Below, one piece after another: positions 22,815 through 25,207 of a stretch of DNA of 64,000 bases. Position 1 is the first letter of the stretch. The number at the start of each line of letters is the position of its first letter. Position numbers and translations under genes: made by a program. The notes beneath the pieces are model-generated. The model was given only the letters and a program-made list of their open reading frames with translations. It was not told the DNA's origin and did not search any database. Origin of the DNA: Achromobacter sp. B7 (GTDB lineage: Bacteria; Pseudomonadota; Gammaproteobacteria; Burkholderiales; Burkholderiaceae_B); NCBI RefSeq assembly GCF_003600685.1, contig NZ_CP032084.1:62001-126000 (forward strand), read 5' to 3'.

Positions 22815-22840
22815 TTGATTCAGGCTGGCAAGAGTGAGCA

Positions 22841-22866
22841 AGGGCCGCGGATTCGCGGCCCTTTTT
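22841..22866 (+). terminator. Rho-independent terminator after the aminotransferase gene
   Basis: A 9-bp stem (AGGGCCGCG / CGCGGCCCT) with loop GATT, followed by TTTTCTT on the plus strand, 26 bp past the stop codon. Confidence 0.9.
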
Positions 22867-22920
22867 CTTGCGCGGACAGGCGTTAGGGGGCGCGGGGGAC
22901 GGGGACCGCACCCTTCATCA

Positions 22921-23035
22921 TTAGCCTATAGTGCAGCAATCACGCAAAGTCTGTTGCACTATAGGCTAATAAAATCTGCCGTTTTGCTGCGCTATAGGCT
23001 AATATTTTCCTAACTTATGACCGCGTACAGGCTAG
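22921..23035 (+). promoter_or_regulatory. Operator array in front of mmyA
   Basis: Four related sites precede mmyA. Site 1 is TTAGCCTATAGTGCA at 22921-22935. Site 2 is its exact inverse, TGCACTATAGGCTAA at 22955-22969. Site 3 is CTATAGGCTAATA at 22992-23004 (13 bp identical to site 2; its 19-bp extension matches the inverse of site 1 with one change). Site 4 is a degenerate GTACAGGCTAG at 23025-23035, just before the start codon. Sites 2, 3 and 4 begin at 22959, 22992 and 23025 within the common core, exactly 33 bp apart, about three helical turns. The stretch is much more AT-rich than its surroundings. This is the expected place for autoregulation by MmyA. Binding is inferred, not shown. Confidence 0.75.
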
Positions 23036-23038
23036 AAA

Positions 23039-23500
23039 ATGTCCCCCGAACTCAACCAACTTCGCTTGGAACAACTGCAGGCCGCGCTCTCTGCTTACGC
23101 AAACCTGCTGGGGCGAAAACCGCCTGCTAGCGGTTGGTTGAAGCTGATCCGGGAGTCACTTGGCTTGACTCAGCGGCAGCAAGCCGAACGCTTGGGAATT
23201 TCGGCACCCACGCTTCATAAATCAGAACAAGCGGAAGCGGACGAACGCATCTCGCTCAGGCAACTGCGCAAGCTGGCGGACGGACTTGATTGCGAACTTG
23301 TTTATGCCTTGGTGCCTCGCAAGCCGCTCACGGATAGGGTTCAAGAGCGCGCCCGCGCTGTCGCGCTGGAAGAGGTCGGAGGCGTTGCGCACACCATGGG
23401 CCTCGAAGACCAGCGCCCAACAGAGGACCGACTCCGTAAACAAGTAGAGCGCAGAATCGATGAACTGCTACGGGGCCGATGGTCCGAGCTATGGCGCTAG
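23039..23500 (+). CDS. mmyA: Mobile mystery protein A (HTH regulator of Fic pair)
   Basis: A 153-residue protein with a Cro/C1-type HTH at about residues 35-90 ('LTQRQQAERLGISAPTLHKSEQAE'). It is preceded by a short helical region and followed by a charged C-terminal helix. It fits the mobile mystery protein A family, known as the upstream member of a two-gene module with a Fic protein and often found on mobile or plasmid DNA. Codon choice is less GC-biased than neighbours. The ATG at 23039 has no clear Shine-Dalgarno, and the last operator-like repeat ends 3 bp before it. It probably binds the repeat array upstream and controls the pair; whether it also neutralises the Fic protein is unknown. 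Confidence 0.88.
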   Translation: MSPELNQLRLEQLQAALSAYANLLGRKPPASGWLKLIRESLGLTQRQQAERLGISAPTLHKSEQAEADERISLRQLRKLADGLDCELVYALVPRKPLTDRVQERARAVALEEVGGVAHTMGLEDQRPTEDRLRKQVERRIDELLRGRWSELWR

Positions 23501-24081
23501 ATCTTGACTATCAAGACGGCCAGACACCACTGGACCCCGATGAACGGGCGGGCCTCATCCCCGAGCACCTGAGCACCAAGGGCGACTTGAATGATTGGGA
23601 GCAGGAAAACCTGTTGCGTGCGGTGCGCTGGTTGAAAAGGGCTCGTTCGCCAGATGTTCTAAGCGAAGGATTCTGCCGAACGCTCCATTCCAAAATGTTT
23701 GACCAGACGTGGAGCTGGGCAGGGACCTTCCGGCGGTCAGACAAGAATATCGGTTGTGACTGGACGCAGGTCAGCACACGTCTATCGCAACTGCTTGCCA
23801 ACACCCGTTGGGGAATCGAGCGTGGCGCCTATCCACCCGACGAAATCGCTGCCCGCTTTCACCGCGACCTGGTCTGGATTCACCCATTCCCAAACGGCAA
23901 CGGGCGGCATTCCCGAATGATGGCTGACGCTCTTCTACGTAGCCTGGGGCAAGCGCAGTTTTCCTGGGGGGGCGCGGGAAATCTTGTGAACGCCTCCAAC
24001 GCTCGGACTCGCTATCTCAACGCGCTACGCGCCGCGGACCAGGGCGAATATCACTTGCTGCTTGCGTTTGTTCGCAGCTAA
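23491..24081 (+). CDS. mmyB: Mobile mystery protein B (Fic domain)
   Basis: A 196-residue Fic-fold protein. An N-terminal segment (GQTPLDPDERAGLIPEHLSTKGDLNDWEQ) is the family signature. The Fic motif is HPFPNGNGRHSR at 131-142. Fic enzymes transfer AMP or another nucleotide phosphate to target proteins; the histidine is catalytic. At the usual metal-binding Asp/Glu position (residue 135) there is Asn, which may change cofactor use. No clear (S/T)xxxE(G/N) inhibitory helix is seen in either protein. The ATG at 23491 overlaps mmyA by 10 bp, so expression is coupled; an ATG at 23479 is the alternative. Targets and biological role are unknown. Confidence 0.88.
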   Translation: MALDLDYQDGQTPLDPDERAGLIPEHLSTKGDLNDWEQENLLRAVRWLKRARSPDVLSEGFCRTLHSKMFDQTWSWAGTFRRSDKNIGCDWTQVSTRLSQLLANTRWGIERGAYPPDEIAARFHRDLVWIHPFPNGNGRHSRMMADALLRSLGQAQFSWGGAGNLVNASNARTRYLNALRAADQGEYHLLLAFVRS

Positions 24082-24142: not shown

Positions 24143-25114
24143 TCAGTGCGACGACACATAGGTGGCGTCGGCAAACGACGCAGGAATCGCGAAGCTTTCG
24201 CGCATGCGTCTCGCCTCGGCCGCCGGCGTCAAGCCGAAAAGCCGCTTGAACTCTCGGCTGAATTGCGATGTGCTTGTGTAGCCTACGGCGTGGCCCGCCG
24301 CTTCAGCGGTCAAGTCCTGGCGCACCATTAACAGCCTTGCCTGATGAAGCCGCGTCGATTTCACGTACTGCATCGGGGACACTTGCGTGACCGCCTTGAA
24401 ATGGCTGTGGAAGCTGGGAACGCTCATGCCCGCCTTCTGCGCAAGCTGCGTCACATCAAGCGGTTCGGCGTACGCGGCATGAATATGCCGTAGCGACATC
24501 CCTATCCTGCCAAACTGCCCTCGCATCGCCAGTGCCTCGCGCATCGCCCCGCCTTGTGGCCCGGTCAACACGCGGAAGTACAGTTCGCGCAGCAGGCCCG
24601 GGCCCAGCACGGCGGCTTCGATTGGCTGGTGCATGGCTTCAAGAAAGCGCAGAACGCAGGTGTGCATCCTGTGGTCCATCCGAGTCGACATCATGCTCTT
24701 GGGCACCTCCGCCCCATCGCCCGCGCTTGCGTTGCCGATCTGCGCGGCCAGCTCGGCAGCCACCGTGAAATCAAGGTGCAGATAAAGCGCCAGCAATGGG
24801 CGTTCCGGTGTTGCATCGGTTTCCATGCTGAAAGGAACCGGCACCGAGACGGCAAGATAATGATCCTCGTCGTACTGATACATCTGCCCGCCAAAGTACC
24901 CCCGCTTGCGCCCTTGGCACACGATCACAATGCCGGGGTCATACAAAACGGGGGTGCGTGAAAGCGCTCGGTCGGAACGCAGGATGCGCACGCTGGGCAG
25001 CGCGGTCAGGTTATAGCCTTCGGCGGGCGCCAAGGCGCGCAGTAGCGCGACCGTGCGCTTGGGCGTATCGGAATGCGTGGCCGAACATTGAGTCAAGGCG
25101 GCGTTTAGGCTCAT
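24143..25114 (-). CDS. AraC family transcriptional regulator
   Basis: A 323-residue regulator with an AraC_N-type (PF06719-like) ligand-sensing domain in the first 190 residues ('PVLYDPGIVIVCQGRKRGYFGG...Y'). A double AraC HTH lies in the last 110 ('VTQLAQKAGMSVPSFHSHFKAVTQVSPMQYVK' and 'AGHAVGYTSTSQFSREFKRLFG'). The ATG at 25114 is used; a longer frame would run through the promoter region of the divergent gene. The 93-bp gap to the divergent SDR gene should hold both promoters, and this pairing of AraC_N regulator with an SDR is common, so the SDR is the probable target. Confidence 0.92.
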   Translation of the reverse strand: MSLNAALTQCSATHSDTPKRTVALLRALAPAEGYNLTALPSVRILRSDRALSRTPVLYDPGIVIVCQGRKRGYFGGQMYQYDEDHYLAVSVPVPFSMETDATPERPLLALYLHLDFTVAAELAAQIGNASAGDGAEVPKSMMSTRMDHRMHTCVLRFLEAMHQPIEAAVLGPGLLRELYFRVLTGPQGGAMREALAMRGQFGRIGMSLRHIHAAYAEPLDVTQLAQKAGMSVPSFHSHFKAVTQVSPMQYVKSTRLHQARLLMVRQDLTAEAAGHAVGYTSTSQFSREFKRLFGLTPAAEARRMRESFAIPASFADATYVSSH

Positions 25115-25207
25115 AGCTTTATGCAAGAAATTCAGCGAATTCGGGCTGATAAGTGGTCTATGGCAAGAATAGTATGCAGTCTCCTCTTTGCATTTTGGAG
25201 ACGCAAC

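Follow-up and report, generated by a model that had tools for sequence, protein, structure and literature searches.

The mmyA-mmyB gene pair of Achromobacter sp. B7 occupies positions 22,920-24,081 of the 64,000-nucleotide stretch analysed here (the window; G000:C1:62,001-126,000 of the 6.24-Mb single-contig genome) and probably forms a sporadically distributed, autoregulated toxin-antitoxin (TA) module of class I-like Fic type, whose antitoxin would repress its own operon. This reading draws on a complete operon, a series of regularly stepped sites in front of it, invariant residues in the tail of MmyA, the Fic fold of MmyB and an asymmetry in the loss of the two genes. Judged from the sequence, the stepped array is the most unusual and the best supported part of the system. 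Class I Fic TA pairs are already known; new would be a class I-like pair that combines a DNA-binding antitoxin with a strictly stepped operator array. The elements of the operon are as follows.

22,920-22,939, minus strand: operator-like site centred at about -110 from the mmyA start (repeat and weight-matrix site)
22,952-22,971, plus strand: operator-like site centred at about -77 (repeat and weight-matrix site)
22,985-23,004, plus strand: operator-like site centred at about -44 (repeat and weight-matrix site)
23,000-23,005: -10-like TAATAT overlapping the end of the -44 site, found by eye
23,018-23,037, plus strand: degenerate operator-like site centred at about -11 and abutting the mmyA start codon (weight-matrix score 1.9)
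23,039-23,500, plus strand: mmyA, helix-turn-helix (HTH) protein of 153 amino acids, proposed antitoxin and repressor (TIGR02612 over cut-off; HTH_3 at residues 34-88)
23,393-23,413, plus strand: T-M-G-L-E-D-Q, MmyA residues 119-125, proposed Fic-inhibitory motif
23,491-24,081, plus strand: mmyB, Fic-domain protein of 196 amino acids, proposed toxin (TIGR02613 over cut-off, and PF02661)
23,881-23,916, plus strand: FIC motif HPFPNGNGRHSR, MmyB residues 131-142, from the sequence

The two genes are adjacent and co-directional, and by score their products are full members of mobile mystery A (TIGR02612, NCBIfam; 136.6 bits, cut-off 122.6) and mobile mystery B (TIGR02613, NCBIfam; 233.8 bits, cut-off 124.4), with PF02661 also matching MmyB. 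Both proteins exceed the NCBIfam cut-offs, and the module is complete, as the sequence-only reading, an earlier annotation of this DNA made from its letters alone, had claimed. Both models are of the type hypothetical equivalog and have no function attached. Related loci were collected by a search of which the best 80 of 154 were kept. The 10-bp gene overlap described earlier is correct provided that mmyB begins at the ATG at 23,491, a start that we favour because the longer frame (start 23,479) has a stop at codon 3 in 4 of 84 loci (L022, L055, L057 and L065); with script-chosen starts, 31 of 82 loci had an overlap of 10 bp and 24 had one of 22 bp.

The promoter had been called repeat-rich, and three 20-nucleotide copies, two direct and one inverted, are indeed present. 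The core TATAGGCTA was found 54 times in the 20,059 bases upstream of mmyA, in 36 of 82 loci (52 copies in 35 of 80 loci when two duplicate contigs are removed), and 0 times in the 784,029 bases flanking those loci. In the genome of strain B7, CTATAGGCTA has 3 copies, all of them in the mmyA promoter; a reversed control pattern also has 3 in the genome. A weight matrix built from the exact core matches was then applied to 78 promoters, i.e. those of the 84 loci except L003 and L005 (which repeat the contigs of L027 and L080), L060 and L088 (no mmyA found) and L089 and L097 (little upstream DNA). This yielded 113 neighbouring site pairs, 82 of which were exactly 33 bp apart and 95 at 33, 66, 99 or 132 bp, the sites lying at about -11, -44, -77, -110, -143 and -176 from the mmyA start codon; 15 of the 78 promoters had no site and 9 a single one. 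The site at about -11 is weak in the window (1.9) but strong in the G035 copy (21.9). The scan that gave the argD terminator found no sigma-70-type promoter.

Since the weight matrix had been trained on the same promoters, the 33-bp test was repeated without any motif, by counting self-similar 10-base windows at distances of 12-80. The counts again peaked at 33, where 51 beta-type loci gave 475 and 27 distant loci 198, the median being 7 in both groups. At 33 bp, 66 of the 78 promoters were positive, compared with a mean of 4.3 and a maximum of 9 in 200 shuffles, and 74 of them were positive at 32 or 33 bp. Of 12 plasmid loci chosen for their diversity, 11 also had the step (85 windows at 33 versus a median of 1), as did 14 of 18 later chromosomal loci, of which one repeats L032 and five were positive by 1-2 windows only. 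In the distant loci, the operator letters differ and are still palindrome-like by eye (AACCTATAGGT, CCAGGCTACAGCCTGG, ACAACATATATGTTGT). In one literature search, no TA operators with an equivalent 33-bp or otherwise regular spacing were among the matches listed.

Several controls weaken the case for the 33-bp step. The window alone has 33 clusters of at least 3 self-matching windows, and the promoter cluster, with 15 windows, is barely above two others in the window (14 and 13). Downstream of mmyB, the 51 beta-type loci gave 17 windows at 33, with a median of 9, and the 27 distant loci gave 2, with a median of 2; in the plasmid sample 33 was the top distance downstream too, its 18 windows coming from 3 of the 12 loci and 13 of them from L179. 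The shuffle control covers the 78-promoter sample, and the weight matrix, besides its training on the promoters that it scanned, was used at a low threshold.

The second line of evidence comes from the C-terminal part of MmyA. Eight residues (E66, A80, Y89, M120, L122, E123, Q125 and W152) are invariant in 80 of 80 MmyA relatives, and five of them are in the tail, four as M-x-L-E-x-Q. The best-conserved eight-residue stretch is 87-94 (mean 0.91), with 118-125 at 0.88; by comparison, the HTH has 0.73 and the tail as a whole 0.65. A Ser or Thr stands four residues before E123, i.e. just before the Met, in 79 of 80 relatives, and the residue after E123 is Gly or Asn in 7 of 80, Asp in the window and mostly Asp overall. 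M-x-L-E-x-Q was also found in 12 of 12 plasmid copies (Ser or Thr in 10), in 18 of 18 further loci (Ser or Thr in 14) and in both orphan MmyA proteins of genome G207 (one with Thr). In the structure model of MmyA (predicted local distance difference test, pLDDT, 89.7; predicted template modelling score, pTM, 0.65), a long helix (97-122) ends at the motif.

Class I Fic antitoxins have an inhibitory (S/T)xxxE motif, whose spacing the tail motif appears to share, with register and conservation in agreement. The consensus is (S/T)xxxE(G/N). In Fic-1-AntF, the antitoxin residues S24 and E28 are reported to form bonds to the second FIC arginine, and inhibition is lost in AntF E28G (PMC13327609). VbhA is reported to inhibit in a like manner (PMC3667792), and the survey of (S/T)xxxE(G/N) antitoxins described in the same source may include MmyA. 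The sequence-only reading had left the mode of inhibition undecided, and because MmyA carries what looks like a Fic-inhibition motif, it need not stay so. Homology of the MmyA tail to VbhA itself was considered and is unproven, with an hhalign probability of 0.3% against a thin set of 6 VbhA sequences. The tail had no match in Pfam, including the VbhA family PF18495, and in VIA-align of MmyA alone the rows covered the HTH (about 25-93), with no Fic antitoxin chain among the 50 listed.

MmyA-like HTH proteins with a nucleotidyltransferase-like C-terminus occur in G260 (L204:1473-2105) and G349 (L205:2188-2802), with PF01909 just over cut-off in L204 and matches below cut-off in L205; they are possibly another adenylyl-transfer module with the same HTH. 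G434 has an MmyA-like HTH protein with an unassigned C-terminus and, separately, a complete mmyAB pair. By eye, these three MmyA-like proteins have neither the tail motif nor an adjacent MmyB match, and the G207 orphans keep the motif; the motif therefore tends to accompany MmyB, not strictly so.

In MmyB, R139 and R142, the latter being the second arginine of the FIC motif, are invariant in 42 aligned sequences. The strict pattern HxFx(D/E)GNGRxxR does not match MmyB, which has Asn at the Asp/Glu position. This Asn was found in 74 of 75 loci, 72 times as HPFPNGNGR, the remaining locus being without a match; L022, L055, L057, L065 and L097, in which mmyB is cut by the start choice or a stop, were left out of this count. 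In the later sample, 15 of 18 MmyB matches contained the FIC pattern, and it was missing in L202, L210 and L213, through either partial alignment or decay. MmyB also matched the PADLOC candidate PDC-S04 profiles (best 62.8 bits, E value 8.2e-18; the tool gives no cut-off).

From these features we infer that MmyA binds DNA, represses the operon and physically inhibits a toxic MmyB. MmyB would be a nucleotidyl transferase with a Fic fold, most probably an AMPylase, and harmful if free, and MmyA a two-function antitoxin composed of a DNA-binding HTH and a toxin-blocking tail. The HTH, of Cro/HipB type, would bind the palindrome-like operators every 33 bp from the promoter up to the mmyA start codon, and MmyA on this ladder would switch mmyAB off. 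The tail, predicted as a long helix ending in [S/T]-M-x-L-E-x-Q, would place E123 in the active site of MmyB, where it may pair with the second FIC arginine and block productive binding of ATP. GyrB and ParE are targets of other class I Fic toxins, which for MmyB is a precedent only. More tentatively, and less likely than not in our view, MmyA and MmyB may form a regular nucleoprotein filament on the 33-bp lattice, so that inhibited toxin is stored on the promoter and freed upon derepression. Such a filament would have one MmyA dimer per palindrome and rigid contacts between neighbours, perhaps via MmyB, that fix the 33-bp step; conservation would then bear on the length of the step, with the operator letters drifting.

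The proposed system differs from the class I Fic pairs VbhT-VbhA, EcFicT-EcFicA and Fic-1-AntF in that MmyA has an HTH and operators of its own, lacks similarity to the VbhA profile and mostly has Asp, not Gly or Asn, after the Glu, and in that MmyB has Asn for Asp/Glu in the FIC motif. HipB of E. coli tops the Foldseek list for the MmyA HTH, at a best E value of 0.028, which is not significant, and is among the profile matches too. Both hipBA and mmyAB have several operators over the promoter; the distances between the four in E. coli hipBA are 28, 39 and 28 bp, compared with the 33-bp step of mmyA, and the partner of MmyA is a Fic-domain protein, unlike the HipA kinase. W152 (window 23,492-23,494) is a C-terminal Trp in 80 of 80 MmyA relatives. 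HipB is reported to have a universally conserved C-terminal Trp, W88, in a tail that marks it for degradation by Lon (PMC3376134), and a shared degron or contact is possible.

CccR of Yersinia pseudotuberculosis is likewise an autorepressing Fic system with an HTH and with Asn in the FIC motif (HPFGNGNGR), and it is reported as an AMPylase (PMC9755527). Unlike mmyAB, it is described as class II, a single chain with its own inhibitory helix and the HTH at the C-terminus. An equally spaced set of palindromes has been reported for PaaR2/YdaS of a cryptic prophage of E. coli O157:H7; this system differs from mmyAB in its toxin and regulators, which are not Fic, and one prophage was studied.

The distribution of the pair is sporadic, in line with the sequence-only reading. 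The genomes in which MmyB exceeds the cut-off number 4 of 43 in the genus, 14 of 185 in the class and 17 of 299 in the phylum; the named close relatives are A. piechaudii (L080, 88% MmyB identity) and P0002 (annotated Achromobacter spanius, 93%). On plasmids, MmyB relatives were found in 252 of 72,556 records, 251 of them at less than 60% identity. Among 11 annotated plasmid loci hand-picked from these 252, TA- or defence-like gene names occurred within about 3 kb in 6 and a transposase or integrase in 4. One of 50,697 phage records matched MmyB, weakly (28% identity over 71% of the query), and viral contigs gave no match to the search patterns. In a plasmid of Agrobacterium tumefaciens, pAtLMG305 (L181:816-1997), a second gene annotated as Fic family adjoins mmyAB on the opposite strand.

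In the window, the pair stands between two genes that had been named earlier as an aminotransferase gene with a terminator and an AraC gene, and both are there.

22,840-22,863, plus strand: terminator-like stem in which argD ends (terminator scan), left edge of the variable cassette
24,143-25,117, minus strand: AraC-type gene

The GC content is 0.595 for mmyA, 0.587 for mmyB and 0.454 for the promoter, compared with 0.651 for the whole window, and GC at third codon positions is 0.62-0.65 for mmyAB versus 0.90 for argD and 0.74 for araC, so that the lower GC first estimated by eye is confirmed by computation. Among 10 scanned neighbour open reading frames (a selection of those at 15.5-30.8 kb) there was no match to an integrase or transposase, as had been stated. 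The pair directly follows argD in the window, G035 and G018 and is absent in G036 and G038; it is thus not at this place in all relatives, and its GC and third-position GC differ from those of its neighbours, so the outcome named in the sequence-only reading as its refutation did not occur. Between G035 and G036, the left flanks are 97.6% identical over 1,900 bp and the right flanks 95.3% over 2,860 bp, and the matched flanks enclose 1,303 bp in G035 versus 50 bp in G036. In the window, homology to G036 ends at about 22,897. The match to G038 (97.0% left; 93.3% and 92.8% right) ends on the left just past the argD terminator and begins again at about the mmyB stop codon. By eye, no target-site duplication was seen at the cassette in these two comparisons. 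The pair is about 11 kb downstream of argD in G027 and about 14 kb downstream in G031. Because it is shared, lost or displaced among relatives, the site near argD looks old in the genus, and a recent single insertion in Achromobacter sp. B7 would not be required. The interval downstream of argD looks variable; between argD and the AraC gene, G035, G036 and G038 (L104, L134 and L135) have one or more other small genes beside or instead of mmyAB.

mmyA lies beside mmyB in 82 of 84 loci, the two unpaired mmyB loci being L088, near a contig edge, and L060, whose mmyB has an abnormal 5' end. In the class and phylum samples, all 30 genomes with an MmyB match had an adjacent MmyA match, some copies being decayed. 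Single frames join MmyA to MmyB in P0121, P0143 and L100, with sequencing error possible for each; the model of the P0121 fusion had a pLDDT of 88.0 and a pTM of 0.61, and its VIA-align rows covered mainly residues 165-352. P0141 was dropped as a fusion, because by eye the similarity in its MmyA half stops at about residue 105 and the motif is absent. Cases of mmyA without an intact mmyB are G031 (L176:2327-3057), where mmyA is complete and mmyB has an in-frame internal loss of residues 55-156, FIC motif included, and two solitary mmyA genes in G207 (L191:2130-2600 and L192:2396-2968), which are possible anti-addiction antitoxins. By eye, a probable site-specific recombinase lies about 0.7 kb from the mmyA gene in L192. 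Stop codons were found in the mmyB matches of G344, G271 and G079. The persistence of mmyA without an intact mmyB is the asymmetry expected of a TA pair, and the TA-like role suggested by the sequence-only reading thus finds support in the sequence.

The same data can be read in other ways. We regard it as unlikely that mmyAB is a transcriptional switch in which MmyB modifies MmyA, e.g. by AMPylation, and so controls its binding to the ladder, with no need for MmyB to be toxic. Strict pairing and fusions would suit an enzyme and its substrate, and an activity that is narrow or altered could explain the Asn in the FIC motif; however, an invariant tail Glu with Ser or Thr four residues before it fits an inhibitor better than a substrate, and mmyA outliving mmyB is less expected. 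Moreover, the genome of strain B7 has no copy of the exact core outside this promoter, so that such a switch would control only itself. That MmyAB senses infection by phage and MmyB shuts the cell down is improbable in our estimate and would be compatible with a TA module, of which it could be the role. The defence unit proposed by the sequence-only reading is hinted at by the PDC-S04 matches and by the gene names near 6 of the 11 picked plasmid copies, with mobile-element genes near 4, but PDC-S04 is itself a candidate only, no sensing element was seen in the module, and the window copy stands amid metabolic and regulatory genes.

We give least credit to the idea that the cassette is moved by its repeats, which would then be recombination sites or replication iterons instead of operators. 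It would accommodate a cassette that is present or absent between matched flanks and a family that is often plasmid-borne, but the sites are locked to the mmyA start codon (at about -11, -44 and -77), they occur both on chromosomes and on plasmids, and the comparisons with G038 and G036 place the cassette edges at the argD terminator and close to the mmyB stop, outside the array. It is also very unlikely that the pair is a relic without present function. The decayed copy in G031 and the stop codons in the three mmyB matches would agree with a relic. Against it, the comparisons with G035 and L080, respectively, gave ratios of nonsynonymous to synonymous substitution rates (dN/dS) of 0.09 and 0.08 in mmyA and of 0.11 and 0.05 in mmyB (dS to L080 is above 1), and the motifs in the window are intact.

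If the proposed TA module is real, a Fic inhibition motif would sit on a DNA-binding antitoxin, and control of toxin and of transcription would be joined in one small protein. For mobile mystery A/B, a widespread pair without assigned function, attention is now narrowed to E123, the FIC motif and the 33-bp spacing. Betaproteobacteria, Bdellovibrio and alphaproteobacterial plasmids appear to share this step in spite of drifting operator letters, and the need of repressors for exact spacing could be studied cleanly in such a system.

Elsewhere in the genome of strain B7 there are two VbhA-type (PF18495) matches (G000:C1:4620644-4620784 and G000:C1:5534027-5534149), and conventional FicTA pairs may therefore coexist with mmyAB. 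In the papers searched, 'mobile mystery' and 'Fic' did not occur together. For Ferrovum, mobile mystery A and B are counted among the mobile-element genes (PMC4886054, PMC4725956), and on Rickettsia plasmids mobile mystery B is filed under cell division/wall regulation (PMC4750851). In Mesorhizobium loti, a gene for 'mobile mystery protein b' is reported among the 50 most heat-shock-induced genes (M-value 4.02; PMC3989490), which would fit derepression upon loss of a labile antitoxin.
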